Shown here one piece after another: positions 3,110-17,757 of a stretch of DNA of 42,468 nt; position 1 is the stretch's first letter, and each line of letters opens with the position of its first letter. This stretch comes from a virus. The position numbers were made by a program, and so were the translations under genes. The notes beneath the pieces were generated by a model. The model saw only the letters and a program-made list of their open reading frames with translations, made no database searches and was not told the origin of the DNA. The stretch covers positions 1 through 42,468 of IMG/VR virus record IMGVR_UViG_3300042988_000401; one strand, given 5' to 3'.

Positions 3110-3147
3110 GTCTTCTCTCCCCAAATTGCGGCGTGTGCTTCAATCAT
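3106..3147 (-). CDS. possible 13-codon minigene
   Basis: A 13-residue frame (MIEAHAAIWGEKT) starts in an ATGA overlap with the stop of the 42-residue gene upstream and ends in an ATGA overlap with the start of the 99-residue gene. It therefore fills exactly the gap in an otherwise unbroken chain of coupled genes. It could be a leader that carries ribosomes across, or a chance frame. No function can be read from its sequence. Confidence 0.25.
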   Translation of the reverse strand: MIEAHAAIWGEKT

Positions 3148-3272
3148 GTCAGCACCTCTATAACAATCGCCAGTACCATCAACAAGAGTCCGAACGCAAC
3201 CGATACATTCGGGTGAATGTGTGGAGCCGCATACACAGCCCCGACAATCAAGAGTAGTTGTGTGGATTTCAT
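3144..3272 (-). CDS. small membrane protein, 42 aa
   Basis: A short frame with two hydrophobic stretches: LLLIVGAVYAA near the N-terminus and VAFGLLLMVLAIVIEVL at the C-terminus, with a histidine-containing turn between (PHIHPN). The start forms ATGA with the stop of the 249-residue gene. It is likely a membrane-inserted hairpin. No family recognised. Confidence 0.5.
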   Translation of the reverse strand: MKSTQLLLIVGAVYAAPHIHPNVSVAFGLLLMVLAIVIEVLT

Positions 3273-4018
3273 TTACCTTCCCCCAGTGCTGCTCTGGCAG
3301 CGTCTTCGCTTAATGCAATGTCGACCGGATTGTTTTTGCACCCTATAGCGTGTCCATGCTGGTAGTTGCACAATGGGCAGCGTCTATTCAGTGCTGATTG
3401 CGCAAGAACTGCGCGAATGTCCTTGATGATTTCAGGAGCGGTTCCACCAACACGCAAATCTTCCATCGCGTTAGCCGCTTCCCTCGCAAGATCCCGCAGC
3501 CGCTCGTTCTCTGCCATGAGTCGGTCACGTTCGACACCAGTTCCCGTGGCGGCTATCCACTTTTGCGCGTTGTCTAGCTGTGCTGTCAGCCGCTCTACCT
3601 CTGCGTAGGGATTGTGGGTATCAGGCACCTTGCCGTCAGCATAGCTCTTGGTGATGGCGGTTATTGCAGGGTGGTGCTGAATGCAGCTAAGTGCCTGCTC
3701 TGCCGTCATGTGTGGTTTTGTTCCGTGATGTACGGCCCAACGCTCCACGAATTGCAGCGTGTCCTTCAGCCGCTCGTTCTCTGCGCGGAGTGTCAACGCA
3801 TCATTGAAATACAGGTCGCAGTTTTGTGTGGCAAAGTCCCTTTCCCCTGTCAGCGCCTCGTTCTCTTTCTCCAGCAACCCAGCGTGTTTCGATAGCACGT
3901 CAAGCTCTTTCTCCATCGCAGCCACAGCAGCAGCTAGGTCTGCGCGGCATTCATTGGGTTCTCCGAATGGTTTGTATGTGCAGGCATACGCATCAGCCAG
4001 TTCAAGAATCTTGCTCAT
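3269..4018 (-). CDS. hypothetical long coiled-coil protein, 249 aa
   Basis: Begins with the MSKILELADAYA module shared with the 99-residue protein. Several coiled-coil stretches follow, rich in ENE/ERL repeats (LLEKENEALTGERD, LRAENERLKD, LMAENERLRD). Near the C-terminus RRCPLCNYQHGHAIGC gives a CxxC plus histidine/cysteine pattern that could bind zinc. The ERL-type repeats suggest growth by internal duplication. It starts in an ATGA overlap with the upstream 62-residue gene. Function unknown; such proteins are frequent in early arms of siphoviruses and podoviruses of proteobacteria. Confidence 0.72.
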   Translation of the reverse strand: MSKILELADAYACTYKPFGEPNECRADLAAAVAAMEKELDVLSKHAGLLEKENEALTGERDFATQNCDLYFNDALTLRAENERLKDTLQFVERWAVHHGTKPHMTAEQALSCIQHHPAITAITKSYADGKVPDTHNPYAEVERLTAQLDNAQKWIAATGTGVERDRLMAENERLRDLAREAANAMEDLRVGGTAPEIIKDIRAVLAQSALNRRCPLCNYQHGHAIGCKNNPVDIALSEDAARAALGEGK

Positions 4019-4203
4019 GTTTCCTCCTTCTCAAGCGGCACATCGCGCCATTGTTCGTCGGGCACAATCATCTGTTTTTCAACATCCCATCGTGGCGCAT
4101 TGTTTGTCCACTTCTGCTGCAAGACGCGGATTGTTTTGCGCTCCCACTTGTCGTCACCGAATACTTCGCGCTCCACAAAGCGCAGTTCGTTTGTTGGTGT
4201 CAT
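4015..4203 (-). CDS. hypothetical protein, 62 aa
   Basis: A small charged protein with tryptophans spaced through its length (DKWERKTIRVLQQKW, PRWDVEKQ, DEQWRDVPLEKEE), consistent with a compact beta-rich fold. Family not recognised. Its start lies in a 25-base direct repeat that recurs at the next upstream gene start. Coupled by ATGA to both neighbours. Confidence 0.65.
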   Translation of the reverse strand: MTPTNELRFVEREVFGDDKWERKTIRVLQQKWTNNAPRWDVEKQMIVPDEQWRDVPLEKEET

Positions 4204-4222
4204 GCTGTCCCCCTGTTGCGTA
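4198..4222. repeat. 25-base gene-junction repeat, copy 1
   Basis: Identical to 4374-4398. It covers the start codon and Shine-Dalgarno of the 62-aa gene plus the last codons (RGTA) of the 59-aa gene, so a whole gene junction is repeated. The two copies frame the 59-residue gene. Confidence 0.75.
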
Positions 4223-4379
4223 CCTGCGCTGCCAAGTACGGCGCATCTGCGTAGTCTTCAAACCACTTAGCTATTGCCTCTCGCTCTGATTCCACAGCAG
4301 CGTTCCACGCTATTTCGCAGCACCGCTTAAAGTCTTCGTTGCCCCAGATGGCATCGCTCCACCATTCTTCAAATGTCAT
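4200..4379 (-). CDS. hypothetical phage protein, TFEEWW family, 59 aa
   Basis: The ATG at 4379 is chosen over a longer frame because it follows a GGGGGA Shine-Dalgarno and overlaps the upstream stop by ATGA. The protein matches a pattern seen in many phage early proteins: MTFEEWW at the start, a central AWNAA, and a C-terminal RNRGTA. This family is widespread but uncharacterised. Its last residues (RNRGTA) are identical to those of the neighbouring upstream protein, part of a junction repeat. Confidence 0.65.
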   Translation of the reverse strand: MTFEEWWSDAIWGNEDFKRCCEIAWNAAVESEREAIAKWFEDYADAPYLAAQVRNRGTA

Positions 4380-4398
4380 GCTGTCCCCCTGTTGCGTA
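4374..4398. repeat. 25-base gene-junction repeat, copy 2
   Basis: Second copy, at the junction of the 59- and 80-residue genes. Homologous exchange between the copies would delete or duplicate the 59-residue gene precisely and in frame. Confidence 0.75.
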
Positions 4399-4618
4399 TG
4401 GCTGCTGCGCACTCTTGAGCGCCTTTCCTGTACGCGTACCACGATCCGTCGTACGTCTCACACACCTTCGCACAAGCCTCTCGCTCTTTAAGAGCAGCGG
4501 CCTCGGCTACCAGTGCTGCGAAGCGTTCAAGGTCATTCAAGTTGCACTGGAAAAACACACCGTTGCGCGAGTTGTTGATACCGGCTTCACGCGCCCATGC
4601 AATGATCTGTTCGTTCAT
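4376..4618 (-). CDS. hypothetical phage protein, REAxAKVCE family, 80 aa
   Basis: The ATG at 4618 is chosen: it follows GGAG and removes an unlikely cysteine-rich extension. The sequence has the hallmarks of a very common phage family: IIAWAREAG near the N-terminus, LERFAALVAEAAALKEREACAKVCE in the middle and CAAAIRNRG at the end. Its function is unknown; it is helical and probably soluble. Coupled to its neighbours by ATGA at both ends. Confidence 0.72.
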   Translation of the reverse strand: MNEQIIAWAREAGINNSRNGVFFQCNLNDLERFAALVAEAAALKEREACAKVCETYDGSWYAYRKGAQECAAAIRNRGTA

Positions 4619-4722
4619 GTCAACTCCACCAGCAGCATCCCCACAACAACGCCCGCCAAAAACACAGAGACTGTGTTGAAGACGCGAGAAGGATCGCTCA
4701 TCCATTCAAGTAGTGTGTTCAT
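4615..4722 (-). CDS. small single-pass membrane peptide, 35 aa
   Basis: Short frame with a polar N-terminus (MNTLLEWMSDPSR) and one hydrophobic helix (VFNTVSVFLAGVVVGMLLVEL). It starts in ATGA with the stop of the upstream 95-residue gene and ends in ATGA with the start of the 80-residue gene, so it fits the coupled chain exactly. Probably an inner-membrane peptide. Function unknown. Confidence 0.5.
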   Translation of the reverse strand: MNTLLEWMSDPSRVFNTVSVFLAGVVVGMLLVELT

Positions 4723-5006
4723 CGCTTCGCTCCCTGAATCACCGCCATAGCAATGGCCTTCTGCGGGGTGTCAAAGTATTTAAGACAAAACTGATCGGTT
4801 ACCCATTTCCCGTCCTGAGACTGGTATGGAAAGCAGTCATACCGAGCAGCAATCGGCCCGATCACGTCCCAGTCGCGGTAGTCGAAGATGCGCCAGTTAG
4901 CATAGATGCCAGCCCCGTACCACACGGCAACCGTATCGTCATAAATGTCCAACTCTTTCCACCCAATCGCAAGCGCGAGGGCTTTGTTTATTTCGAGGTC
5001 TGTCAT
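4719..5006 (-). CDS. hypothetical phage protein, 95 aa
   Basis: Soluble protein rich in aromatic residues: the N-terminus TDLEINKALALAIGW is followed by WRIFDYRDWDVIGPIAARYDCFPYQ and a C-terminal helix KAIAMAVIQGAKR. Proteins with the pattern NKALALAIGW...DWDVIGPI...A.A..I are found next to NinX-type genes in proteobacterial phages; their role is unknown. Overlaps the NinX-like gene stop by ATGA. Confidence 0.75.
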   Translation of the reverse strand: MTDLEINKALALAIGWKELDIYDDTVAVWYGAGIYANWRIFDYRDWDVIGPIAARYDCFPYQSQDGKWVTDQFCLKYFDTPQKAIAMAVIQGAKR

Positions 5007-5368
5007 AGCAACTCCTTCGGCACGTCAATCTCATCGCCCAACTTGGACGCCACATAGCAGCGCATGGCTGCGATCAGTGGTGTGGGGCCGGTAAGAGTTA
5101 GTCCGCTACTAAACGCCCAGCCGCCAGCTTGTGCGTTCCACACTTGGTCTCCGCGTGTGTTCGTCTGCCGCAAGTACGTGGCGATTACCTCACGCTCAAT
5201 GATCGGGCCACCTTGGGCCCAGTCGGTTGAGTAGTTCATGTCGCCTTCCCCGTGCATCAGTGCGAACTCAGACTCAAATGTGCGGTCAGCCGGTTGCCCA
5301 ATCTGCACCCCTTCACACTTCGCCACCGCCCAGTCAAGGGCGGGGCCTATCAGTTCGGATGTCTTCAT
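5003..5368 (-). CDS. NinX-like protein (DUF2591)
   Basis: Matches the phage P22 NinX / DUF2591 family along its whole 121 residues: ALDWAVAKCEG near the N-terminus, YSTDWAQGGPIIERE in the middle, and GPTPLIAAMRCYVASKLGDE at the C-terminus. NinX belongs to the nin-type accessory genes of lambdoid phages; its molecular role is not established. The Shine-Dalgarno AGGAGG is part of an ACTACTAGG nonamer that recurs elsewhere in this genome. The 3' end overlaps the next gene by ATGA. Confidence 0.88.
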   Translation of the reverse strand: MKTSELIGPALDWAVAKCEGVQIGQPADRTFESEFALMHGEGDMNYSTDWAQGGPIIEREVIATYLRQTNTRGDQVWNAQAGGWAFSSGLTLTGPTPLIAAMRCYVASKLGDEIDVPKELL

Positions 5369-5375
5369 CGCGCCT

Positions 5376-5384
5376 CCTAGTAGT
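5376..5384 (-). repeat. ACTACTAGG nonamer (first of seven copies)
   Basis: The nonamer reads in the direction of transcription. Other copies: 7332-7340, 8682-8690, 10332-10340, 11669-11677 and 11683-11691 (all minus) and 39186-39194 (plus). Here it contributes to the Shine-Dalgarno of the NinX-like gene. In genes it appears in different reading frames (TTR and LLG), so it is not simply a shared peptide. Confidence 0.6.
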
Positions 5385-5575
5385 TAGTTGCTGGACAGGT
5401 AGTGCTGCAAGCGTGCGATGCGGTCGCTCTCATACTGAACCATCGCGGTGCAGAACTCCTGATGTGACTGGTAGTGCAGCAGCATGCGCTGCGCGTCGGC
5501 TAGTTCCCGGCATGCCAGCTCCTTGGCTGTGGGGGGTGTGAACGCGTTACGCCATATCTCGGTGAGTGCCTTCAT
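5384..5575 (-). CDS. hypothetical phage protein, 63 aa
   Basis: The ATG at 5575 is preferred because it overlaps the upstream stop (ATGA) and yields MKALTEIWRNAFTPPTAKEL, a start seen in many small phage proteins of this type. The rest is an amphipathic helix (ARLQHYL near the end) with regular Glu/Arg/Gln spacing, probably a helical hairpin. Function unknown. Confidence 0.68.
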   Translation of the reverse strand: MKALTEIWRNAFTPPTAKELACRELADAQRMLLHYQSHQEFCTAMVQYESDRIARLQHYLSSN

Positions 5576-5766
5576 GCCAAGTCCTCCTGTTTGTCGATCC
5601 ACGCGCCAAGTGCAGCAACCGCGCCCATCAGGCTGGGGTAACGTGCGGCGAACGTCGCGTGCGCTACATTGTTCGAGTTGTGCGAACCCGTCTCAAGGTC
5701 TGCGCTGATGGCTGCGATGATGTCCTGCTCCAAGTCGCGCAGGGTTTCGATTTCTTCCTTGATCAT
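5572..5766 (-). CDS. hypothetical protein, 64 aa
   Basis: Small, mostly helical acidic protein (IKEEIETLRDLEQDIIAAISADLE, then YPSLMGAVAALGAWIDKQED). No family recognised. Coupled by ATGA both to the winged-helix candidate upstream and to the 63-residue gene downstream. Confidence 0.65.
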   Translation of the reverse strand: MIKEEIETLRDLEQDIIAAISADLETGSHNSNNVAHATFAARYPSLMGAVAALGAWIDKQEDLA

Positions 5767-6239
5767 TTCTTCATCTCCTTCATCAGGGCCTTGTACTCAA
5801 GGAACGCTGCGAACTTCTCCGCCTCAGTGAGACCCGGTGCTGGCGCTGGTGCCACCTCGATGCGCGGTGCGGCCTTGGCTTCGATGACACGCATGGCTGA
5901 GTCGAACACGCGTTGCGTCGCGATAGTCTTGACCTTCTTGGTCGTGCGCTTCTTGCGCAGTGGGGGCTCGTACTCCTGCGCGTTGGTCACGCTGTAACGC
6001 TTGATCTTGGGGTGCAGTCCGTGGATGGACGTCTTGCGGCTCACGTCGCCATACACCTTGAGGGTGTCAGCCTTAGTCATCTCATGCAGCACCTCGTAGG
6101 GCAGGTAGTTCAGACCCAGCGCCTTCTTGATGTCCTCGGCGGTCTTCTCAGGGTGATCCTTGAGCCAGTGCCAGATACGGAACTTCACGGTGGGCAGCTT
6201 CATACCGGCTTCAGTCATTGCGTTAGTCATTGCATTCAT
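5763..6239 (-). CDS. putative winged helix-turn-helix protein, 158 aa
   Basis: Residues about 15-85 look like a winged-helix DNA-binding domain: FRIWHWLKDHPEKTAEDIKKALG gives the first helices, YLPYEVLHEMTKADTLKV the recognition helix and wing approach, and IKRYSVT a closing strand. A basic stretch (LRKKRTTKKVK) and an Ala/Pro linker lead to a C-terminal helix ending KEMKK. It could bind the phage operators described here, but that is inference. Several in-frame Met codons lie at the N-terminus; the first one follows AAGGAT and overlaps the upstream stop. Confidence 0.65.
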   Translation of the reverse strand: MNAMTNAMTEAGMKLPTVKFRIWHWLKDHPEKTAEDIKKALGLNYLPYEVLHEMTKADTLKVYGDVSRKTSIHGLHPKIKRYSVTNAQEYEPPLRKKRTTKKVKTIATQRVFDSAMRVIEAKAAPRIEVAPAPAPGLTEAEKFAAFLEYKALMKEMKK

Positions 6240-6412
6240 TTTTCACATCCTTGGTGTCGAACAAACTTCGTCTTGCACTTACCTTCGCATGCACTGTTAA
6301 TGCAGCGAGCTTCTTTCTCGGTCTCCTGCTTCTTGCTCGCGTACCCGGCGATGAAGCCAGAGTTAGCCACGACCACAATCAGCAGCACGTAGAGGATCAG
6401 CCGGTGAATCAT
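6236..6412 (-). CDS. small membrane-anchored cysteine protein, 58 aa
   Basis: One N-terminal hydrophobic helix (LILYVLLIVVVANSGFIAGY, residues 5-24) is followed by a charged segment and four cysteines (RCINSACEGKCKT and a final GC). The cysteine part could be periplasmic and disulfide-bonded or bind metal. It starts in ATGA with the upstream stop and ends in ATGA with the downstream start. No family recognised. Confidence 0.55.
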   Translation of the reverse strand: MIHRLILYVLLIVVVANSGFIAGYASKKQETEKEARCINSACEGKCKTKFVRHQGCEK

Positions 6413-6711
6413 CCGATCCCCTTGCTCTTACACTTCATGAAGTCCATAGCGCCGGGTCGCACTGCTTGCGGCGTGTCCCCCATACCGGTGCGGTACGTGT
6501 CCGGGTTCCACAGCGTGTTGTGCTCCATCGGCAGCGCCTCGTTCTTCTTGCGCGCTCGCGGCACGTAGCCACCCGCTCGGCGCATCTCTTTCGGTGCGAG
6601 GTTGGACTCCACGGGCAGCACAGCCAAGTCCTTGGCGAACCTGTTGACCCGCGTCGCCTTCTTCTTCATGACGGCTAACTCGTTAGCCAACGCACTTGTT
6701 TCTTTCTTCAT
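6409..6711 (-). CDS. hypothetical basic protein, 100 aa
   Basis: The ATG at 6711 overlaps the upstream stop by ATGA and is preferred over longer starts. The protein is basic and rich in lysine and methionine (MKKETSALANELAVMKKKATR, then YVPRARKKNE). The second half (MEHNTLWNPDTYRTG, GDTPQAVRPGAMDF) looks extended. The coding sequence contains a perfect 16-base palindrome at 6673-6688 that matches the operator form found in phage promoters. Function not recognised. Confidence 0.65.
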   Translation of the reverse strand: MKKETSALANELAVMKKKATRVNRFAKDLAVLPVESNLAPKEMRRAGGYVPRARKKNEALPMEHNTLWNPDTYRTGMGDTPQAVRPGAMDFMKCKSKGIG

Positions 6712-6881
6712 AGTCCTGCATCCCACAATCGCCATTGATATTCCATGTCGCCGAACTCGCACTCGTCGGCGCTCTCAGGCACGGGGTCACGGCCCCGGCC
6801 TTCATACATCCACTGGTTGTGCGGGTTGTCCCGCTCCAGTTCTTCGGCTGTGTAGCCGCGTGGCACCTTCGGTTCGTTCAT
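6708..6881 (-). CDS. hypothetical acidic protein, 57 aa
   Basis: The ATG at 6881 overlaps the upstream stop (ATGA) and follows a GGGGG-type Shine-Dalgarno. Acidic small protein with many aromatic residues (NQWMYEGRGRD, then EYQWRLWDAGL). Family not recognised. Confidence 0.6.
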   Translation of the reverse strand: MNEPKVPRGYTAEELERDNPHNQWMYEGRGRDPVPESADECEFGDMEYQWRLWDAGL

Positions 6882-7042
6882 ATGACCCCCTTCTCTTGAA
6901 TCCAGTAGTGGTACTTGATTGCGTTGTCGCTGGACGACTTGAGCATCCGCATGTGGGCGAACGCTTCGTCTTCCTTGGCGTGGACAGCTTCGACCCATTT
7001 GTCTTTCCCGTCGCTGTACCAGAGCAGATATACGATCTTCAT
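6878..7042 (-). CDS. hypothetical protein, 54 aa
   Basis: The ATG at 7042 has a good Shine-Dalgarno (GGAGATTGAC), whereas the longer upstream frame would run into the structured intergenic stretch. Compact alpha/beta sequence: MKIVYLLWYSDGKDKWVEA, a helix KEDEAFAHMRML, then KYHYWIQEKG. It is the first gene after the amidotransferase gene and the intergenic stem-loop, so it may or may not belong to the same transcript. Function unknown. Confidence 0.65.
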   Translation of the reverse strand: MKIVYLLWYSDGKDKWVEAVHAKEDEAFAHMRMLKSSSDNAIKYHYWIQEKGVI

Positions 7043-7131
7043 GTCAATCTCCAAAAATGTTAGGGGTGCCGGGTTGTGCATTCCCTGCCCGGCGCAGGGT
7101 AAAGGAGGGGACGTCGGCAGAAGTACACACC

Positions 7132-7208
7132 ACCAGAGGGGCCGAGCGCCCACGAGCAATAAGCAGATGCACCCACTGTCTCGCTCGCATCGTTATGCAC
7201 CCTCTGGT
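7132..7208 (-). other. long stem-loop downstream of the amidotransferase gene
   Basis: ACCAGAGGG (7132-7140) pairs perfectly with CCCTCTGGT (7200-7208); inside it CGAGCG (7143-7148) pairs with CGCTCG (7182-7187). This nested structure begins at the stop codon of the amidotransferase gene and ends about 90 bases before the next start. There is no U-run, so it is not a classical intrinsic terminator. It may cap or stabilise the operon mRNA or reduce read-through. Confidence 0.35.
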
Positions 7209-8296
7209 TAGTGGATGCTTTCGACCTTGCGGTCGGGATACCAGTTGGACATGGGCTGGTCACGGAACCACTTCATCTCTGTGCGGTTGGTGCTCACGAT
7301 GTCCCACATCTTCTCGCTGATGAGCCCGTCACCTAGTAGTTCCACTGCCAAGTACGCCTTGGTCACGCCCATCTCTTCGATCATGCACTCGATCTGCTTG
7401 TTGGTCGTGCCGTTCTCGATGTAGAACGCATCCAGCATGGAGCGAATCTCCAGCACGTCGTCCAGATAGTCGCAGTCCACGCTCACGCCATTGACGGAGT
7501 TCTTCTCAGTCTTGGTCAAACCCGTAGGCTTCTTGCCACCATTGCTCGTACTCGCTCCATCCATGCTGGCGTACTGCTTGCGCTTCTTCCCGACCTTCGC
7601 CACCTTGGCCGGGCTCCCCGACTTTTTTGCTGCGGGCTCCTCGAACTTCTGCGTCGTCGGGTTCCAGTTGCCCCACTTGCTCGTCATGCTGGGGGTGTAG
7701 TACGTTGCCTTGCGGGGCAGGTACTTCTGAGCCGACCATGCGTACTCGTTGGACAGCCACGCGCCTTGGAACGTCACGCCTTGGTGCTTGTTGATCACAG
7801 CGATCTGCCCGGCATGGTTCATGATGGCGAACCGGTTGTTGCCGATGTGCTTGCCGATGATCTCGTTGAACTCAGGTGTGAACGCAAGCGAGGGGTCAGC
7901 AGCGAGCAACACGCGCAGGTAGTCCTTGATGTAGTGATACGTGTCGGACTTGCTGGTGTCGGCGTAGTTACCCGTGTGCAGCACGCCGTTGTGCATGAGC
8001 AGCATGGGCATCTCAGCTTCCTCGGTGAAGCCAAACACCTCGTAGGGGTGGCAGTTGTCGTAGTCGATGTCACCGTGGGTGCGCATGCGGTAGTGCACGC
8101 AAGCATCCCGACCACGAGCGTACGTGTTGTAGAAGTCCACAGCATCGTTCACATCGCGCGGGATGATCTTCTCTTGGTGCAGGTAGCCACCCTCTGCCCA
8201 CATCACACCGATACCATCACGGTTGCGGGTGTAGAAGTCAGCGAGGTGTTCGTTGGTGAACTCGGTGTCTTTCGACTGGACGATAAGCAAACACAT
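7208..8296 (-). CDS. class II glutamine amidotransferase-like protein
   Basis: An Ntn-type glutaminase: it would release ammonia from glutamine for a partner enzyme. The ATG at 8296 follows AAAGGAGAG and puts the nucleophile Cys at position 2 (MCLL), as this family requires. Further signatures are NRDGIGVMW (25-33), HYRMRTHG (68-75), HNG (102-104, oxyanion region), SDTYHY (117-122) and SNEYAW (182-187). A lysine/serine-rich linker follows around residues 215-240. The C-terminal part (about 255-362) is not recognised. It lies 22 bases downstream of the amidoligase gene, in the same operon, which suggests the ammonia or amine is passed to that ligase. Alternative: a stand-alone glutaminase-fold decoy. 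Confidence 0.85.
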   Translation of the reverse strand: MCLLIVQSKDTEFTNEHLADFYTRNRDGIGVMWAEGGYLHQEKIIPRDVNDAVDFYNTYARGRDACVHYRMRTHGDIDYDNCHPYEVFGFTEEAEMPMLLMHNGVLHTGNYADTSKSDTYHYIKDYLRVLLAADPSLAFTPEFNEIIGKHIGNNRFAIMNHAGQIAVINKHQGVTFQGAWLSNEYAWSAQKYLPRKATYYTPSMTSKWGNWNPTTQKFEEPAAKKSGSPAKVAKVGKKRKQYASMDGASTSNGGKKPTGLTKTEKNSVNGVSVDCDYLDDVLEIRSMLDAFYIENGTTNKQIECMIEEMGVTKAYLAVELLGDGLISEKMWDIVSTNRTEMKWFRDQPMSNWYPDRKVESIH

Positions 8297-8318
8297 AAGG
8301 TCTCTCCTTTGTTGGTTA

Positions 8319-10415
8319 TTAAACTGTTTCAGCCTGCTCTGGCACAGCGGCCACAGCCAGCTTGGGTTGCGCCTTGGGCACAGCCACATCGGCCCATCCC
8401 TTGCGAGACAGGTACAGACGCAAGTTGCGGGTGTCCTTGCGGTTATCGTTGCGGTTGATCCACGCAACGAAGTTGTCCACAGTCAGCGACGTTGCTGCCG
8501 TGTCCCGTGTGAAGCGCCACACTGCCTGAGTGAACTCAAGGCACGCCATCATGGACTGGTACACCACAGTGCCACGGAAGATGCGGAACTCCACCGTGTG
8601 CTGGTTCTGGAAGTTCAGCGCCTCGTAGCGGTTGCCCCCGTTGATGCGGGACAGCGCCATGCGCTCGTGGTTCGCCGTCGTCCTAGTAGTCGTGCCGTAC
8701 TTGACGTCCTTGACAGCCTGCACCGCCAGCTTCTGCGGCGTGCTACGGCACAGCGCATTGTCAATGCGAGCGAACCCGTCGTTGTAGCGACGTGCCACAT
8801 CAGACACCAGCTTCTGCGAGCCGGAGTGGTTGATGAAGTAGCGCATCTTGGATGCGTGCACCAGATGCTTGGGCTTCTGGATGTGGACGTGGATACCACA
8901 CGAACCACCCTTGGCATCGTGGCTGCGCAGCTTACCCTTCCACGGGCTGGTGCCGTCAGCGTTCTCGAACATCTGCTTGAGCAGTGCTGCATGCGTGCCC
9001 AAGTCGGTGAAGCCTGTCACCATCTCGAACCCACCGGGCCCAGTGCTGCCGTCTTCCTCGAAGTGCACGTACTTGCGACGTGTTGCCTCGTCGATCAGCG
9101 TGATGCGGTTGCGCAACTGGCGGGCAGTCATCTCCCGGTCAGTGCCGCCGAAGGCTTGCATCTCCAGCTCCATACCCAGTGTGATCATCTGATCACGCTT
9201 GGCCCCCACGAGGCTCGGCACGAAGCCCACGATGGACTTGCCTGAGTGGCGACCGTTGATAACGCCGGGCTCACGGATGACACGTTGTGTGCCATCACTC
9301 CATGTGTGCAGACGGTACGTCGGCGGCACCAGTATGGTCTCACCGTTACCAGTCAACGCGCTAACAGCGTTAGCTGCGCAGTGCGGGCAGTGCAGGCTCA
9401 CGCCATACACGCCTTGCATTTCCACGGAAGTGCCCGTGTGGTAGTGACCGCAGCCGTCGGCACGGCTAATCTCGACACCCGCCGCTGCGTTGATGCGGGC
9501 AATGATCTCGTCCAGCGTGGGCTGGTACTCGCTCTGGGTGTTGGCAAAGCCCGAAGCGATGCGCGTGATGTAGTAGCTCATGTTGGAGTCGTCGCGCTCC
9601 AACGCACACTCGATGGCCTTGCTGATGCTCTGACCAATGATGCGAGCCTGCTCGCGCCGATACTCACGACGACGGGGCCGGTAGTAGTCGAGGGACTTGG
9701 TCACACGGGTGTCCAGTGCAGCCATACGCTCAACCCACGAACCATACGCACGCTTCTTGGTCACGTTCCAGTGCGCCACGAACGCCATCGGGTTGACGTC
9801 TTCCACGTCGAACACCTGCTCGATAGAGCTAGCGCGGGCATACGAGTAGTCACTCAGGCTTTGGGCGCTATGGAACCCACGGCTCGTGTAGATGTGCTGA
9901 TTGACCACAGACTGCGTGACTGTGGCGTCGCCGTTCACATAGTTGCCGTAACCATCCCAGCGTCCGCCGGGGTTGTAGTTGAAGTCCCACGTATAGCCCG
10001 CACCCGTCATGCCCTGCACCAGATTGAACCGGTGCGTCGTGGTGTTGAAGAACGGGGACACCTTCAGGAACTTGCCGTCGGTGCTGACATCCACCACCAG
10101 ATACAGCGTGCCGCGACCGTAGTTCTGGGTGTAGCCCCAGCCGTTGGAGCCGAACATGCCCACGGGTACTCGGGTGCGGCGGGTCGCATGGAGGGTCACC
10201 AAGCTACCCACTACGGGCTTCTGCTTGGGCGTGGGGGTCACTGTGCCAGCCACGGGCACCATCTGCCCGTTCGAGAACACGTTAGTCTGCACCTTGGTGC
10301 GGCTAACAGCACTGAGCGAGCGCGTGACTCTCCTAGTAGTCCGGGCTACTGGCACCTCGTAGGCCGTGCCTTCTACCAAGCGACGTGCAGTCGCAGATGT
10401 GCGGCGTGTTGCCAT
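8319..10415 (-). CDS. amidoligase (COOH-NH2 ligase, Amidoligase_2-type), 698 aa
   Basis: The C-terminal half has the conserved blocks of the Amidoligase_2 family (ATP-grasp / glutamine-synthetase-like COOH-NH2 ligases): GMELEMQ at 414-420, EEDGSTGPGGFEMVT at 453-467, CGIHVHI at 506-512 and EFRIFRG at 609-615. Such enzymes join a carboxyl group to an amine using ATP. The first 400 residues are unusual: a basic N-terminus, an aromatic, glycine-rich beta region (about 70-165), a helical middle, and a possible zinc site (CGHYH 322-326, CPHC 343-346). Its neighbour encodes a glutamine amidotransferase, so the pair may make an amide on a peptide, protein or cell-wall substrate. The substrate is unknown. 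The leader contains a short GGGC/GCCC hairpin and AAGGAG before ATG. Confidence 0.85.
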   Translation of the reverse strand: MATRRTSATARRLVEGTAYEVPVARTTRRVTRSLSAVSRTKVQTNVFSNGQMVPVAGTVTPTPKQKPVVGSLVTLHATRRTRVPVGMFGSNGWGYTQNYGRGTLYLVVDVSTDGKFLKVSPFFNTTTHRFNLVQGMTGAGYTWDFNYNPGGRWDGYGNYVNGDATVTQSVVNQHIYTSRGFHSAQSLSDYSYARASSIEQVFDVEDVNPMAFVAHWNVTKKRAYGSWVERMAALDTRVTKSLDYYRPRRREYRREQARIIGQSISKAIECALERDDSNMSYYITRIASGFANTQSEYQPTLDEIIARINAAAGVEISRADGCGHYHTGTSVEMQGVYGVSLHCPHCAANAVSALTGNGETILVPPTYRLHTWSDGTQRVIREPGVINGRHSGKSIVGFVPSLVGAKRDQMITLGMELEMQAFGGTDREMTARQLRNRITLIDEATRRKYVHFEEDGSTGPGGFEMVTGFTDLGTHAALLKQMFENADGTSPWKGKLRSHDAKGGSCGIHVHIQKPKHLVHASKMRYFINHSGSQKLVSDVARRYNDGFARIDNALCRSTPQKLAVQAVKDVKYGTTTRTTANHERMALSRINGGNRYEALNFQNQHTVEFRIFRGTVVYQSMMACLEFTQAVWRFTRDTAATSLTVDNFVAWINRNDNRKDTRNLRLYLSRKGWADVAVPKAQPKLAVAAVPEQAETV

Positions 10416-10467
10416 GTCGATCTCCTTGTGGGCTGTACTGCCCTGTTAGTCAGTTGGGTTAACCTGA

Positions 10468-10496
10468 AGTATAACGTACTAACACGTCACATTCAG
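10468..10496 (-). promoter_or_regulatory. candidate promoter of the amidoligase-amidotransferase operon
   Basis: Reading leftwards, a good -10 (TATACT, 10473-10468) is preceded after 17 bases by a poor -35 (CTGAAT). The spacer contains the phage box GTTAG (10483-10479), as in the right-arm promoters. The predicted leader of about 45 bases includes another GTTAG-type box (CTAAC in the transcript) and a palindrome GGTTAACC. A weak -35 with an embedded box suggests control by a phage protein. Confidence 0.45.
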
Positions 10497-10503
10497 TGGA
10501 ATC

Positions 10504-10524
10504 AGCTAGGTATTTACCCTAGCT
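10504..10524. promoter_or_regulatory. palindromic operator-like site
   Basis: AGCTAGG (10504-10510) and CCTAGCT (10518-10524) form a 7-base inverted repeat around a 7-base centre. It sits just after the stop of the 76-residue gene and immediately upstream of the amidoligase promoter. There is no U-run, so a protein-binding site fits better than a terminator. Confidence 0.4.
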
Positions 10525-10526
10525 TG

Positions 10527-10757
10527 TCAGGTCGCTGCCCGCATTGTGGGGAATAGCGCATCAATCTTGGCAAGCGCGGCCCGAGCCGCCGCGTAGAACT
10601 GCTCGCGTGTCAGTGGGGTGAAGCCCTCGATGCGTGCCGTGTTGCAGTGGATGAGCCACTCAACATCGAACTCGAACTCCTCGGCGTCGCTTGCGTCGAG
10701 CAAGTATGTGTTGATCCAGTCCTGATGATGGGCATCGAGGTCGCTGAAATATCCCAT
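10527..10757 (-). CDS. hypothetical protein, 76 aa
   Basis: The ATG at 10757 has an AGGAGAAC Shine-Dalgarno; a longer frame would extend into the terminator and is rejected. Acidic N-terminal half (LDASDAEEFEFDVEWL), then a helix REQFYAAARAALAKIDALF. It stands alone between an intrinsic terminator upstream and the amidoligase promoter downstream, so it may be expressed only when the terminator is read through. Function unknown. Confidence 0.65.
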   Translation of the reverse strand: MGYFSDLDAHHQDWINTYLLDASDAEEFEFDVEWLIHCNTARIEGFTPLTREQFYAAARAALAKIDALFPTMRAAT

Positions 10758-10771
10758 GATGTTCTCCTGAG

Positions 10772-10799
10772 AAAAAAGACAGGGGCTAACGCGCCCCCG
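10772..10799 (-). terminator. leftward intrinsic terminator just upstream of the 76-aa gene
   Basis: In the leftward transcript GGGGC-GCGTTA-GCCCC forms a 5-base stem with a 6-base loop, followed by TGTC and six U. It ends only about 14 bases before the start codon of the 76-residue gene, so it can act as an attenuator between the small genes above and the amidoligase block below. The loop contains a GTTA(G) box. Confidence 0.6.
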
Positions 10800-10883
10800 G
10801 TGTACGTGCCTGTTACGCGGGCAGGTCGGGTTCGGTTTCGTGGATACACACGCAGGCGCGGAGTTCATCCCCCGCATTGGGCC

Positions 10884-10971
10884 CCGTAGGGCTTTACTAA
10901 CCTGACCAGTGGGGTCTTCAAGGGCCAGCTACTAACCAGTGGGGGTTGTTCGCCACACTGGAGCCCTACGG
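10884..10971. repeat. 10-base inverted repeat enclosing two direct repeats
   Basis: CCGTAGGGCT (10884-10893) and AGCCCTACGG (10962-10971) are perfect inverted copies. Between them two copies of an ACTAACC...AGTGGGG unit occur (10896-10914 and 10931-10945, the first with four extra bases). The element lies downstream of the 137-residue gene and upstream of the intrinsic terminator. It could fold into a large RNA hairpin or bind the same factor as the promoter boxes. Confidence 0.5.
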
Positions 10972-10999
10972 CTAACCATGAGCGCCGGATGCTCTCGTA

Positions 11000-11413
11000 T
11001 TAGATGCAGTGCGGGTGCCCATCTTCATAGGCCTCGAACGCCCGGTCTCTGAACTCGGACTCGAAGTACGCACTGGGCTTGTCAATGTGGTAGCGCACCG
11101 GCCCCTCGGCGCTAGCAAAGATGCCGTCAATGAACGCGTCCAGCGTCTTGGCATCGGCTGGCAGGACGTACCTGCTCGTGCCCTCGCACATGTCGCAGTC
11201 GCGTTGCCACACGATGAGCGCAATCTGGCCGTCCTCTTGGTCGTCGCGCAACTGGCGCAACCAGTCCTGTCTGGACTCGCGGCGTGCTCGGGCAGTGGCA
11301 AGCCACTGGTGCCGCTCCTCCCATTTGTTGAGCAGGCGCAGCGTCTCGGACTGGGTCAGGTGCTTGCCAATCTCGCGGCGCAGGTTGCGGGTGAAATCGT
11401 CGGGGCTCATCAT
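11000..11413 (-). CDS. hypothetical protein, 137 aa
   Basis: Mostly charged helices in the first 60 residues (NLRREIGKHLTQSETLRLLNKWEERHQWL, ARRESRQDWLRQLRDD), then a mixed region with CDMCEG (CxxC) and YVLPADAKTLDAFIDGIF. The C-terminus is rich in Asp/Glu/His. The CxxC might bind metal. No family recognised. The start has GGAG nine bases upstream. Confidence 0.65.
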   Translation of the reverse strand: MMSPDDFTRNLRREIGKHLTQSETLRLLNKWEERHQWLATARARRESRQDWLRQLRDDQEDGQIALIVWQRDCDMCEGTSRYVLPADAKTLDAFIDGIFASAEGPVRYHIDKPSAYFESEFRDRAFEAYEDGHPHCI

Positions 11414-11430
11414 GACGGGGGCTCCTGTGG

Positions 11431-11700
11431 TTAGTGGGCGCGCATTGTCTCACCTGTTAACAGGTTGACACGCATTCGTTGGTCGGGTTCTGTGCGCACC
11501 ACTATCGTGGTGTGGTGGCTGTGCTGCCTTGGGCCGTAGACTGCATCGCGCAGTCTGGCAAACACTTGCTTGCCCAGTGGCATGCAGCGCAGTTGCAGTG
11601 CGCACGTCTTGACGTGGTTGTGGTAGGCCACATCGGTTGCGTCTTGCAACTCGTGGGCCGCACGTTCGCCTAGTAGTGGCCTCCTAGTAGTCGTGGTCAC
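11431..11700 (-). CDS. hypothetical protein, 89 aa, GTG start
   Basis: The GTG start overlaps the upstream stop (GTGA), like other coupled genes here. The first codons contain two ACTACTAGG nonamers in different frames, encoding TTTRRPLLGE. The rest contains HELQDATDVAYHNHVKTCALQ and a closing beta-like stretch (TTIVVRTEPDQRMRVNLLTGE). Function not recognised. Confidence 0.6.
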   Translation of the reverse strand: MTTTTRRPLLGERAAHELQDATDVAYHNHVKTCALQLRCMPLGKQVFARLRDAVYGPRQHSHHTTIVVRTEPDQRMRVNLLTGETMRAH

Positions 11701-11828
11701 ACTACCTCCACGAAGTCGGCGAAGTCATCGGGCTCGGCAGCATCGAAGTCCCAGATGTGGCACCCGGTGTCGTCGCCCACGTAGGGCAGGTTGTACACAA
11801 GGGGCAGGGGCAGTTGGATTCCGGGCAT
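11697..11828 (-). CDS. hypothetical small acidic protein, 43 aa
   Basis: The ATG at 11828 follows GGAGGACTGAC and lies one base after the upstream stop. Hydrophobic/proline N-terminus (PGIQLPLPLVYNLPYVG), then a strongly acidic tail (FDAAEPDDFADFVEVV). Such short acidic proteins can mimic DNA or inhibit host enzymes, but this is only speculation for this one. Confidence 0.5.
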   Translation of the reverse strand: MPGIQLPLPLVYNLPYVGDDTGCHIWDFDAAEPDDFADFVEVV

Positions 11829-11829
11829 G

Positions 11830-12018
11830 TCAGTCCTCCAGTTGGGTTGAGTGGTACACGGTGAACAGGGATGCGGCACCCGCAACTACTGCCAAGGGCA
11901 GGGCAATCCACGGGTTGAGACCATAGCCAACCTCGACGTAGTCGATTGCCATTTTTATCAGAGTGGCTGCGGCGAACTGGTAACCGAGTGCGGCTAGGTA
12001 CAGGGAAAACTGCATCAT
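11830..12018 (-). CDS. small membrane protein, 62 aa, two TM segments
   Basis: Two hydrophobic helices: FSLYLAALGYQFAAATLIKMA (about 4-24) and NPWIALPLAVVAGAASLFTVY (about 35-55). Start has AAGGAAC upstream. It is the first gene leftwards of the repeat-rich gap. Family not recognised. Confidence 0.6.
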   Translation of the reverse strand: MMQFSLYLAALGYQFAAATLIKMAIDYVEVGYGLNPWIALPLAVVAGAASLFTVYHSTQLED

Positions 12019-12059
12019 GATGGGGTTCCTTAGATTGACAGTTGGAAAGGGGGCTTAGG

Positions 12060-12072
12060 CTAACAGACTAAC
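12060..12072 (-). promoter_or_regulatory. paired GTTAG boxes upstream of the 62-aa membrane gene
   Basis: The plus strand reads CTAACAGACTAAC, two direct boxes with an 8-base period, as at 20499 and 42002. Leftwards, a TTGACT (12086-12081) lies upstream at -35-like distance, but the -10 (TTAGCC) is poor. It is listed as a regulatory site, with the promoter itself uncertain. Confidence 0.4.
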
Positions 12073-12250
12073 ACGTCAACAGTCAATGTAATCAGGGGTA
12101 TAAAATTCCTACCCTTGACAGTTGTTCTCTTGATTCCTTACATTGACAGTTGGGGTTCTTCTCTGATTCTCTTGATTCTTATTACACCCCTTTTGGGAGA
12201 GAGGAACTATCAAGAGTAGAAAAGTGCAGCGGGGTGCAGTCCACCAGAAA

Positions 12251-12291
12251 ATAACACTCGGCTCGTGTATCTCATCGCCGGAGGGTGTTAT
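12251..12291. other. hairpin inside the iteron cluster
   Basis: ATAACAC..CGGC (12251-12262) pairs with GCCG....GTGTTAT (12277-12291), giving an imperfect stem with a 14-base loop. Stem-loops of this kind occur in phage origins and in structured leaders. No U-run follows on either strand. Confidence 0.45.
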
Positions 12292-12430
12292 ATGAATCTG
12301 GAGAATCAAAACAATCAAGAGTAGAAGGGAGTCAGGTTTTCTTCTCTTGACAGTTGACTGCCCCATACTCTTGACACTTGCACATTTATCACTTCACCCA
12401 TTGGTATGCAGTGAACCCACATACCGATGA

Positions 12431-12448
12431 GGGGGGCTTGCGCCCCCT
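12431..12448 (-). terminator. strong hairpin after the 158-aa gene, no U-tract
   Basis: In the leftward transcript GGGGGC-GCAA-GCCCCC forms a perfect 6-base GC stem capped by a GNRA tetraloop, about 15 bases after the stop codon. No U-run follows, so it may protect the mRNA 3' end or pause the polymerase rather than terminate alone. Confidence 0.4.
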
Positions 12449-12461
12449 GCACCCCGCCCGT

Positions 12462-12938
12462 TCAGGCAGTTGCACCCAGCAGAGCTGCGATCTTCTCGGC
12501 CAGCTCAGCGTGGCTGACCTTCACGCCCTTCTTGCTGTAAGACTCGGCGCGGTCGAGCTGCTTGCGGATTGCTTCCATCAGGTCGAACTCTTCGACCGCA
12601 GCCTTTTCCAGCTTGAAGGATTCCCAGTTGTTGCACACCTCGCGCAGGGTCTTCACGGTCTCAGCGTTCCAGTCCGGGGTCTTGGCATCGAAGAACTCGA
12701 ACTTCTTGTCAGCCTTGATCCAAGCCAGCTTGCCGTGCTTTTCCAGCAGGTCGAGGATTGCCTGCTGCTTGGTGGACTTGCGCAGGCACTTCACCAGTGC
12801 GTTAGCTGCGCCAGCATCCTTGTTCACGTTAGCGAAGTACAGCGCGGCCAGCAGAGCCTTGCCGATTTCGGTCGTGGCGCGGGCTTGAGCGCGGGCAATG
12901 TTAGCGATGATGGTGTTGAATTGTTCCAATGTAAACAT
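12462..12938 (-). CDS. hypothetical early phage protein, 158 aa
   Basis: The ATG at 12938 has a strong Shine-Dalgarno (AAGGAGAATCGT); a longer frame into the gene-free region lacks one. The protein is almost wholly helical (FNTIIANIARAQARATTEIGKALLAALYF, NALVKCLRKSTKQQAILDLLEKHG), with a central WIKADKKFEFFDAK and a charged C-terminus. As the first gene of the leftward arm it is probably strongly and early expressed. No family is recognised. Confidence 0.75.
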   Translation of the reverse strand: MFTLEQFNTIIANIARAQARATTEIGKALLAALYFANVNKDAGAANALVKCLRKSTKQQAILDLLEKHGKLAWIKADKKFEFFDAKTPDWNAETVKTLREVCNNWESFKLEKAAVEEFDLMEAIRKQLDRAESYSKKGVKVSHAELAEKIAALLGATA

Positions 12939-13739
12939 ACGATTCTCCTTGGTTGTTGAGGGTTGCCGGACACCGTCCGCCACTGCCCACCGCGTAGAGT
13001 GAACAGGAACTGACGTAGTCAGATTTGTGTAAGTGCTGGTATTACCGCGCCAGCGTCGCGGGCTTTGCCGTGCTTCAATCAGGGTATTACTGGCGCCCCC
13101 TGCGGCGCCTGCATAGTTCACGCTATGCCGTTCGATAGACCCTTGCAGCGCCATGCGCCGCTATATGCTTTTGGTTCGGGGGCTTGATGCGCTATCGACC
13201 GCTTTTCACTGATGAACCCGCGTATGTTGCCCGCCAGACGCTAACCCTCCCCGATTCAAGCCTTGCGACCATCGGTTCGTTTCGTGCATTCAGTACACTT
13301 GCTGTTGCCAGCCGTTCCACCGATTCACTCCGCGCCCTGCGAGCCCGCACTGCCACCAGCGTCAAGCCCCTACCCGCCACACTGAAGGGCGGGTGCCCTA
13401 TGACCGCCCGGCTCCTCCAGCCCGCGACTAATCAATCGGCCCACGTTGCACATCTTCCGTATCGCCACCTTTCGGCTTGCGTTGCAACGTTCGGTAGGTC
13501 TGGCAGTGCTATCTTTCAGCCTCGCTACACCACTCGCTTTTTGTTGAAAATCCGGCCTGCCGGGGGGTGGGACAAGGGCGGCTGGCCCCGCCCCCGAGCC
13601 TTATCTCTGGCTCTCAGTGGAAATCAGTTTTTGAGCCCCTGTTAAGTAAATGACACCTAGCTAGCTAACCCCACGAGGCGGCATCTGGTTAGCAAGGAGT
13701 GCGTTGCCCGGAGGTGTTAGTTGCGTTATCCTATGGGGC
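12939..13739. other. gene-free region between the divergent arms
   Basis: About 800 bases hold no gene that I can support. The region contains many potential stems: CATAG/CTATG around 13110-13125, CGATAG...CTATCG spanning about 13134-13194, GGGCGG/CCGCCC near 13390, a self-complementary CGTTGCAACG near 13482 and a GGGGG...CCCCC stem near 13562-13595. GGTATTAC occurs twice near 13040 and 13085. Near its right end lie CTAGCTAG and three GTTAG/CTAAC boxes next to the terminase promoter. It should hold the leftward early promoter, which I could not identify, and perhaps a packaging site or structured RNA. Confidence 0.5.
13704..13732 (+). promoter_or_regulatory. promoter of the packaging/head operon
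   Basis: TTGCCC (13704-13709), a 17-base spacer containing GTTAG, and TATCCT (13727-13732). The terminase gene ATG starts 8 bases after the -10, so the transcript would have almost no 5' leader. Confidence 0.6.
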
Positions 13740-14120
13740 ATGAGCACTCAAACAGCACGAGACCGGTTCAAAAAGAACTTGGAGGACGGTGGCGATCAGG
13801 TCATCGTCGAGTATTTCAAGCGGCTGGGCAACGAAGCCGAAGCCAGCATCGACGACCTGCGCAAAGCGGTCGAGCTGGTTGCCAAGGCGCACGGTCTCAA
13901 TCAGTCCGACAAGGTGGACTCCATGATGCAGGTGAGCTGGACCATCAACGGAGGCAACGTCACCATCGGCGTGACCAACCCCAGCGCTGCGCCAGAAGCG
14001 ACCGAAGTTATCGAAGATGCGACCATCAAAGAGGTCACTGGCTCACCAGATGAGCCACCTGCTCCCACCACCCCCGCTCTGGTCATTCCGCCACTCGAGA
14101 ACCTGCTGGACCAAGCATGA
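13740..14120 (+). CDS. putative terminase small subunit, 126 aa
   Basis: Assigned by position: it is directly upstream of the large terminase and overlaps it by ATGA. The N-terminal half is helical and charged (TARDRFKKNLEDGGDQVIVEYFKRL, IDDLRKAVELVAKAH), which suits a DNA-binding oligomer; the C-terminal part is Pro/Thr-rich and ends with a hydrophobic LENLLDQA, possibly the contact to TerL. The chosen ATG gives STQTARDRF; no Shine-Dalgarno is present and the promoter sits directly upstream, so translation may be leaderless. The starting TTG at 13704 would lie within the promoter. Confidence 0.65.
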   Translation: MSTQTARDRFKKNLEDGGDQVIVEYFKRLGNEAEASIDDLRKAVELVAKAHGLNQSDKVDSMMQVSWTINGGNVTIGVTNPSAAPEATEVIEDATIKEVTGSPDEPPAPTTPALVIPPLENLLDQA

Positions 14121-15550
14121 ACTACAACGCAAGCCCCACGGGCAACCTGTTCCTTGCCAGCCGCAAGTTCATCAAGATCATCATGGGCCCGGTGGGTGGG
14201 GGCAAGTCCACGGTGGCGTTCTTTGACCTGCTCGACCGCGCATTCAATCAGGTGCCGCACAACAACATCCGGCGCACCAAGTTCATCGTGCTGCGCAACA
14301 CTGCCGCTCAGTTGAAGGCAACCGTCAAGCCCCTCATTGACCAGTGGATGGTTACGATGCCGCCCCACCCGATGGGGCAGTGGAGGCTGACCGACAACAC
14401 GTTTGAGATCAAGGTGCGCATTCCTGATGGGACCGTCGTGCACACTGAGTTCGTCCTGATGGCCGCAGACACGCCAGATGACGTGCGACGCCTGCTCTCT
14501 GTGGAGTGCTCAGCCGCTTGGGTGGAGGAGTCCCGTGAGGTGGACCCCGAGGTGTTCGCTGGTCTCCAAGGCCGTACAGCCCGCTTCCCTAATATGGCGT
14601 CCGGCGGGGTTACCTACCCCGGAGTCATCTGCTCGACCAACCCGCCGCCTCTTGGGGGCTTCTGGCACGAGTTGATCACCAAGCCGCCCACGAACACCGA
14701 GGTGTTTATCCAGCCAAGCGCCATCCTCGCAGACGGCTCCATCAACCCCGACGCGGAAAACCTGTCCAACCTCGCTGCCGACTACTACGACAACCTACTG
14801 GCTGCGAACACCGAGGGGTGGATCGACGTCTACCTCAAGAACAACTTCGGGCCGGGCAACATGGGCCAGCCGGTGTACAAAGCGAGCTTCAGGCGCGACT
14901 TCCACGTAGCAAAAGACCCGCTCAAGGCCGTCTCGGCAAGCGTGAATCCGCTGATTGTGGGCATGGACAACGGGCTGCAAGCTGCGGCTGTGGTGGGGCA
15001 GCTCGATATGCGCGGGCGGGTCAACGTGCTGGCCGAGTGCTACGTGCCAGAGGAGCAGACGATGGGGGTGGAGAGCTACCTCGACAGGCTCCTAATACCC
15101 CTGCTGCGGAGCAAATTTCCCCAAATTCGGCCCGAAAGTATCGTTTTTGTGGTCGATCCGGCCTGTTTTCAGCGCTCTCAGGTCAACGAAATGACCATCG
15201 CGCAGGCCATCCAGAACCGGGGTTTCAGGGTCGTAAAGGCCTCCACAAACGACCCGGAGAGGCGAATTGACGCTGTTGAGGGCCTGTTTTCACGCCAAAT
15301 CGACGGTGGACCTGCCTTTTTGATCGACCCCGAGTGCCCGTACTTCATCGAGGCCTGTGAGTGGGGCTACCGGTACAAGAAGTCAGCCAGCGGTCAGACG
15401 ACGCTCACCCCCGACAAGAGCCACCACAGCCACATTTCGGACGCGGCGCAGTATCTGGCGCTGCACTACAACATCATCCACCACGGCGGCCCCAACATGG
15501 GACGAAGGGCGGCTCAGACACCCAAGCGCAGCTCGTACGTTTACAGCTAG
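14117..15550 (+). CDS. terL: terminase large subunit
   Basis: ATP-driven packaging motor and headful/cos nuclease. Walker A GPVGGGKS is at 24-31, Walker B AAWVEE at 133-138, and the coupling motif STN at 173-175. The RNase H-like nuclease acidic residues are D284 (GMDNG), D347 (VVDPA) and D442 (SDAAQY). At 477 residues it has normal size. It overlaps the small subunit gene by ATGA and is followed by a new promoter for the portal. Confidence 0.93.
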   Translation: MNYNASPTGNLFLASRKFIKIIMGPVGGGKSTVAFFDLLDRAFNQVPHNNIRRTKFIVLRNTAAQLKATVKPLIDQWMVTMPPHPMGQWRLTDNTFEIKVRIPDGTVVHTEFVLMAADTPDDVRRLLSVECSAAWVEESREVDPEVFAGLQGRTARFPNMASGGVTYPGVICSTNPPPLGGFWHELITKPPTNTEVFIQPSAILADGSINPDAENLSNLAADYYDNLLAANTEGWIDVYLKNNFGPGNMGQPVYKASFRRDFHVAKDPLKAVSASVNPLIVGMDNGLQAAAVVGQLDMRGRVNVLAECYVPEEQTMGVESYLDRLLIPLLRSKFPQIRPESIVFVVDPACFQRSQVNEMTIAQAIQNRGFRVVKASTNDPERRIDAVEGLFSRQIDGGPAFLIDPECPYFIEACEWGYRYKKSASGQTTLTPDKSHHSHISDAAQYLALHYNIIHHGGPNMGRRAAQTPKRSSYVYS

Positions 15551-15551
15551 G

Positions 15552-15580: not shown

Positions 15581-15602
15581 CGGCCAACTTCATGGACTAA
15601 CT

Positions 15603-17747: not shown

Positions 17748-17757
17748 GGAGCACACC

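Follow-up and report, generated by a model that had tools for sequence, protein, structure and literature searches.

Why would a tailed phage carry an amidoligase gene and a glutamine amidotransferase (GATase) gene side by side, and do the two products belong to one system? The question is posed by the linear virus record IMGVR_UViG_3300042988_000401 of IMG/VR, called the window here over its whole length of 42,468 bases, in which a ligase of the Amidoligase_2 type (PF12224) is encoded directly ahead of a class II GATase. We show here that the two genes are linked in both directions among close viral relatives, which supports functional coupling of amidoligase and GATase. An earlier note on this DNA had read the locus as an operon whose two enzymes might amidate or cross-link a peptide, a host protein or cell-wall material. 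This interpretation is partly supported: both enzyme identities and, in close relatives, the coupling hold, while its account of the amidoligase N-terminus is half right. Thus, the locus contains a real, well-coupled pair of an already known kind, with a lineage-specific N-terminus.

Linkage of the two genes in viral relatives

Since a single-protein scan of viral contigs returned the near-identical record only, relatives were collected by profile scans, keeping the best 80 of 253 for the amidoligase. For the reverse scan with the GATase the best 80 of 248 were kept; six were already in the forward set and 74 were tested. The two sets share many contigs, and the forward set includes the phages MW202733, MEP401 and MEP402. 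A GATase adjoins the amidoligase in 41 of 43 clusters of complete amidoligases, a count that leaves out partial amidoligase open reading frames (ORFs) and the window duplicates L001, L006 and L007. In the two unpaired clusters the sequence ends 12 and 42 bases after the amidoligase ORF. Counted by rows, the GATase is missing in 7 of 86, all with 135 or fewer bases remaining. Conversely, an amidoligase lies upstream in 73 of the 74 GATase loci; in the remaining one, 94 bases separate the GATase start from the end of the contig. It had been said that the pair would be refuted if the two genes never occurred together in homologous phages; within the close family, they do occur together.

With the clustering applied, no other neighbour family comes close to being constant; the commonest, a terminase, occurs in 19 of 50 groups. 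Upstream sequence of 5 kb or more is available for 34 groups. A large terminase was found 1.3-5.6 kb upstream of the pair in 27 of these, on the opposite strand in 27/27, and none was found in the other seven. Four terminase queries, mutually unmatched at E 1e-3 or better, account for 17, 4, 4 and 2 groups; PHROG profiles class each of the four as a large terminase, and three share the broad family phrog_2. As a divergent terminase stands upstream across four terminase groups, the pair recurs near the block head in several phage lineages. No earlier report of this recurrent place facing a divergent terminase was found in the open-licence literature. Further downstream of the pair, 12 viral loci from 6 groups have a RimK-like ATP-grasp gene, for example at 8778-9551 of locus L016. 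This gene shows 34% identity to its ATP-grasp counterpart in Stenotrophomonas phage StenR_269, whose cassette comprises ATP-grasp, GGCT, Amidoligase_2 and two GATases, and this homology ties the simple pair to longer published cassettes.

Gene layout, folds and the N-terminal region

The amidoligase stop and the GATase start are 22 bases apart, and each gene has a separate ribosome site (Table 1). The ORFs, this spacing, Cys2 of the GATase and the motif positions proposed earlier were all confirmed on the sequence. The motifs are GMELEMQ (residue 414), DGSTGPGGFEM (455), CGIHVHI (506), EFRIFRG (609), CGHYH (322) and CPHC (343) in the amidoligase, and NRDGIG (25), RMRTHG (70) and HNG (102) in the GATase. 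The claim that the pair stands under one promoter was not confirmed: a sigma-70 consensus scan of 6900-11500 gave 0 sites (1.4 expected in shuffles), so a shared promoter is not demonstrated. The same stretch has a single terminator-like hairpin, against 2.8 expected by chance; it lies at 10799-10780, on the upstream side of the pair, and the space between the two genes has none. What the earlier note had observed is thus partly confirmed, in the gene identities and the spacing, while the single promoter is not shown and the wholly unrecognised N-terminus was overstated. On the plus strand, a 436-codon open frame at 9246-10556 runs mostly antisense to the amidoligase gene and probably just results from the high G+C content of that coding sequence.

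Table 1. Features of the amidoligase-GATase pair, in window positions.
Feature	Positions	Strand	Basis
Amidoligase_2-type ligase, 698 aa, ATG start	8319..10415	(-)	ORF; PF12224 E 1.7e-10; PHROG 2443 'amidoligase enzyme' 8e-11
Class II (N-terminal nucleophile, Ntn) GATase, 362 aa, starts Met-Cys (ATG-TGT)	7208..8296	(-)	ORF; fold; family profile
Amidoligase ribosome site AAGGAG	10422..10427	(-)	sequence reading
GATase ribosome site AAGGAGAG	8302..8309	(-)	sequence reading
Amidoligase residues 1-204, lineage-specific N-terminal extension	9804..10415	(-)	predicted local distance difference test (pLDDT) under 50 nearly throughout
Amidoligase residues 205-312, helical region	9480..9803	(-)	model helices of low-to-middling confidence; column occupancy
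Amidoligase residues 316-355, probable zinc ribbon (C322, C343, C346)	9351..9470	(-)	conservation; pLDDT 55-74
Amidoligase residues 385-404, conserved linker (H-S-S/G-K ... IP)	9204..9263	(-)	alignment
Amidoligase residues 405-676, ligase domain of glutamine-synthetase/YbdK-like fold	8388..9203	(-)	VIA-align; residue conservation
GATase residues 1-192, catalytic (Ntn) domain	7721..8296	(-)	invariant residues; fold
GATase residues 278-352, C-terminal helical bundle	7241..7465	(-)	pLDDT mostly 77-91

The identification of the amidoligase stands on profile, fold and residues alike. PF12224 matches residues 494-633 (profile positions 97-245 of 245) with 41.6 bits against a cut-off of 22, and is matched by 40/40 aligned relatives at E <= 0.01. 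An AlphaFold2 model from the 40-sequence alignment has a mean pLDDT of 63; in the ligase domain, 19 of 27 ten-residue blocks from 411 to 680 reach 81-95, and confidence drops at 441-460, 501-510 and 541-590. By VIA-align the ligase model resembles YbdK (Z 11.9, root-mean-square deviation (rmsd) 4.6, 227 aligned) and glutamine synthetase (4bax; Z 11.6, rmsd 3.6, 184 aligned), and in structure comparison plant glutamate-cysteine ligase shares the fold. Invariant in 40/40 are E416, E418, E453, D455, E464, H499, C506, H509 and H511, as well as R542, R543, R596, N601, E609 and R611. Sequence searches of the PDB with the amidoligase and GATase family profiles gave no match.

The class II assignment of the second protein, also made earlier, holds by fold and by residues kept in 37/37, while the window protein itself stays under the Pfam cut-off. 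GATase_4 (PF13230) scores it with 12.3 bits (E 0.08; curated cut-off 23), which is why it is named by fold and residues; 27 of 37 aligned family members match this profile at E <= 0.01 (best E 2e-5). C2, R70, T73, H74, N103, G104 and D118 are invariant in 37/37, and we take the conserved residues to be the nucleophile, glutamine pocket and oxyanion residues of GlmS. Such conservation, in both protein families, speaks against a chance resemblance. The model (mean pLDDT 74) has EgtC as its top match (Z 10.7, rmsd 3.5, 162 aligned), tied within Z 1 with GlmS (Z 10.1, rmsd 4.2, 171 aligned), and PurF at Z 9.7; Foldseek returned 26 matches at E <= 0.001. The C-terminal helical bundle of the GATase is a candidate partner-docking domain.

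The first 400 residues of the amidoligase had been described as novel. This fits the first 200-240 residues, while about 241-405 belong to the subfamily: column occupancy shows that most relatives align continuously from about residue 241. In the linker, H390 is kept in 40/40, I399 in 39/40 (Val in the window) and P400 in 36/40. The proposed zinc site C322/H324/H326/C343/C346 is present as well, in a changed form of a subfamily feature, CxxC...CxxC. C322, C343 and C346 are kept in 40/40 and C319 in 38/40; the window and the viral contig L009 have Ala319 in place of Cys, and His324/His326 instead. On this conservation, residues 316-355 probably bind zinc as a ribbon. Among aligned sequences, the first 200-240 residues are fully shared with L009 only (28% identity over the N-terminal 310 residues), which suggests that they are specific to this lineage plus this one other contig. 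Residues 1-204 have no confident model, and other folds missing from the structure lists do not count as evidence. The N-terminal region had no match at E <= 1 in 50,697 phage records. A scan of viral contigs with it returned only the near-identical record and missed the known positive L009 too, so rarity is suggested and the support for absence is weak. No free-standing copy was found in the phage records or in this insensitive scan.

The phage, published cassettes and more distant copies

The pair sits in a leftward block, presumed to hold early genes; the rightward block contains the terminase, portal/head-tail, capsid and tail genes of a tailed phage. A larger record of 68,137 bases, G001, has at least window 2466-18415 in identical form, as judged from the piece of G001 that was compared, and additionally encodes a DNA polymerase, exonuclease, integrase, helicase and primase-like gene. 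The phage may be temperate, because this near-identical record has a tyrosine integrase (6210-7268 of locus L090). Beyond the identical stretch (window 1-2466) G001 differs, except for 198 bases at 95% identity; the records may stem from two strains or from a fork in the assembly. A megablast search of phages with window 14000-36000 gave no match. In the window record and G001, both linear and possibly incomplete, no match was found to GGCT (PF06094). The RimK profile PF08443, used alone as the ATP-grasp test, was likewise unmatched in both, with the L016 record and StenR_269 as positive controls; COOH-NH2_lig (PF14395) left both records unmatched, as it did the control genomes and StenR_269. 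No nucleotide-modification gene was recognised among the scanned window and G001 proteins, a subset of the ORFs. Neither the window pair nor a bacterial pair described below (L091) matched a PADLOC defence family at E <= 0.01.

That such pairs are known from phages, as had been stated, is borne out by the literature. The Methylophilales phages MEP401 and MEP402 and more than 30 related genomes carry an amidoligase and a GATase (PMC10580990). Like the window, these two phages have adjacent PF12224 and class II GATase genes, with cysteine pairs before the ligase domain; the genes around them are annotated as hypothetical or as belonging to replication. Their amidoligases are 23 and 21% identical to that of the window and differ in the N-terminus, and their genes overlap by 10 bases. 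According to the same paper, Iyer 2009 predicted that phage amidoligases with GATases modify host cell walls or peptides, and the authors restate the superinfection idea of that work (PMC10580990). In the podovirus ctgrD200 (MW202733, Manatee Spring) the GATase follows the amidoligase after 5 bases, and an integrase lies 0.8 kb ahead of the two; local identity to the window proteins is 30% and 37.5%. Its amidoligase differs from that of the window in its N-terminus and in having several cysteine pairs of the zinc type. For podoviruses of the LUZ24, phiEco32 and RIO-1 type a longer 'peptidoglycan modification cassette' is described (PMC3890496, PMC5498523, PMC11945000). It contains Amidoligase_2 as in the window, with a GATase nearby in UFV-P2 and PSA-HP1, and also has a COOH-NH2 ligase, ATP-grasp and GGCT, of which GGCT and RimK-type ATP-grasp were undetected in the window phage. 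An amidoligase with a glutamine amidotransferase is reported from phage tf (PMC3517423), and an amidoligase with GGCT from a Clostridium prophage, where the superinfection idea is restated (PMC11318856). No report of an experimentally tested substrate of a phage amidoligase/GATase pair was found in the open-licence literature.

Among bacteria, the closest copies come from Polynucleobacter, where 3 of the 186 genomes searched have them. In the order (399) and phylum (398) samples the centre genome alone matched at E <= 1e-15; of 398 genomes sampled from the family, two of Polynucleobacter matched strongly and 91 others weakly, with 34.4 bits at most. The three amidoligases are 85-98% identical. 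Two of the loci (L092 7698-13499 and L093 7791-13565) read integrase, amidoligase, GATase, SIR2, HerA and then relaxase, and in the third (L091 7794-10126) integrase and pair are followed by an unrelated gene in place of SIR2-HerA. A tyrosine integrase lies about 1 kb from the pair in all three (profiled in L091, the others 62-63% identical). The relaxase was profiled in L091 and L092, that of L093 being 78% identical to the one in L092, and a coupling protein was profiled in L091. Hence, the pair is probably also cargo of integrated conjugation-type elements of freshwater Polynucleobacter, for which no earlier report was found in the open-licence literature. In L092 the defence genes SIR2 (7e-85) and HerA (1e-183) come directly after the pair, with L093 versions 98% and 81% identical. 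This neighbourhood may be a single event, because the L092 and L093 amidoligases are 97.5% identical, and it is an association, not proof of defence.

Among 25 phage records, the regions of MW202733, Marvin, AR1086-1, My-WqHQDG, MEP401 and MEP402 were examined, and the 6.6-kb MT839723 was left out. In Mycobacterium phage Marvin (L171 3824-6164) the amidoligase is gp105 (1.6e-9) and the GATase gp106 (1.6e-11) by the family profiles; Pfam scores agree, though under cut-offs, and several records label gp105-type proteins 'glutamine amidotransferase domain', contrary to the family profiles. In Clostridioides phage AR1086-1 (L172 3689-5878) a GATase-less Amidoligase_2 gene is followed by an RlaP-type RNA-repair nucleotidyltransferase. 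In 25 genomes with 43 PF12224 places, three places lie 0.3-0.5 kb from a GGCT gene (all E under 1e-45), two of them in one genome and resembling copies; no GGCT matched on the contigs of the other 40. The Pfam GGCT profile matched in 3/25 genomes, in 2 of them beside the amidoligase, and one phage GGCT used as query found nothing beside clostridial amidoligases. A general replacement of the GATase by GGCT at lone clostridial amidoligases was thus rejected.

Possible functions of the pair

Tentatively, and at somewhat short of an even chance, we favour a two-subunit, glutamine-dependent amide-forming enzyme aimed at a host carboxyl, possibly of the cell wall. Expressed early, as we infer, the two proteins would form a complex in which the Ntn subunit (Cys2) would release ammonia from glutamine by hydrolysis, leaving glutamate, and its glutamine-synthetase-like partner would activate a carboxyl with ATP and join the transferred ammonia to it. 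Target choice would fall to the helical and zinc-ribbon region with its bound zinc, here also to the extra N-terminal residues, about 200 in number. The most likely target would be a cytoplasmic cell-wall precursor or another host molecule, and its amidation would favour the resident element, for example against competing phages. As only two genes are conserved, glutamine-fed amidation is the simplest reading, with MurT-GatD as precedent. This Staphylococcus aureus system consists of two co-transcribed genes whose products amidate peptidoglycan (PMC3267633). It is a two-gene amidation enzyme of protein families that differ from the window pair, so the comparison concerns only how it works. The proposal draws on the two folds, the invariant residues, the two-way linkage and the recurrent place facing the terminase.

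Several observations weigh against this proposal. Although the protein distance matrices of amidoligase and GATase correlate (r 0.93, n=40; 0/2000 permutations reached this value, the highest being 0.66), any neighbouring genes that are inherited together should show such a correlation. No fused amidoligase-GATase protein was found in the ORFs of loci L001-L173 and L174-L284. Away from the close family the GATase is often absent: it is missing in 68 of 80 bacterial genome loci (12 have it), of which 65 have at least 1 kb downstream and the remaining three are cut within 100 bases, and it is missing in AR1086-1 and My-WqHQDG, two of three further phage records examined. Nothing in the window favours the cell wall over another target. 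Finally, EgtC, a hydrolase, is among the best structure matches of the GATase, tied with GlmS. EgtC breaks a gamma-glutamyl bond and is not known to donate ammonia.

The last point leads to a scheme that is possible, if doubtful, in which the amidoligase would form a gamma-glutamyl or isopeptide bond and the Ntn amidohydrolase would cut such bonds, with no ammonia passed between them. It ranks just after amidation, given that the GATase matches EgtC best and that some other PF12224 ligases have GGCT as a neighbour. Precedents are EgtA/EgtC and PuuA/PuuD; in ergothioneine synthesis a glutamate-cysteine-ligase-type ligase, EgtA, accompanies a class II GATase-like Ntn protein, EgtC, as in the window pair, with EgtC as a hydrolase and the two enzymes working at separate steps. 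The ligase fold common to YbdK and plant glutamate-cysteine ligase would suit bond formation of this kind, but the Z-scores of EgtC and GlmS are tied. GGCT is found in the StenR_269 cassette as well as near 3 of 43 other PF12224 places, two of which look like copies, yet the other 40 have no GGCT match on their contigs and GGCT was not found in the window record or the near-identical one. The two-gene form has no conserved third enzyme, so making and cutting the same bonds would be futile unless enzymes of the host intervene. It is unlikely that the pair attaches an amide-linked group to a host protein, such as one of the ribosome or of transcription, which the zinc and N-terminal region would then bind. 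The place near the head of a presumed early block is consistent with such a target, the large diverging N-terminal region would suit target binding, and a similar argument is made for R2K ATP-grasp ligases of jumbo phages (PMC7824862). The RimK-like ligase downstream in 12 related viral loci points the same way, but the window phage gave no RimK-type ATP-grasp match and nothing direct points to a protein target.

A modification of nucleic acid or nucleotides, with the zinc ribbon binding DNA or RNA, is very improbable. The ribbon and the presumed early-block place would be compatible with it, as would the RlaP-type gene after the amidoligase of AR1086-1, a C. difficile phage, but AR1086-1 is without GATase, and the scanned window and G001 proteins gave no recognised nucleotide-modification gene. 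Apart from the chemistry, it is conceivable, though rather unlikely, that mobile elements use the pair as an independent module for exclusion or defence. Phages of separate terminase types would carry it near the head of the early block, and conjugation-type elements with an integrase would carry it next to SIR2-HerA, as cargo in both cases. A modified host carboxyl would then make later phages or elements fail, and the changing N-terminal region would track changing targets.

The linkage in close relatives means that two genes are enough to test, with the 43 clusters as natural variants, and integrated copies in named Polynucleobacter strains are available beside the phage copies. If the product blocks other phages, this would be an unusual chemistry for exclusion.

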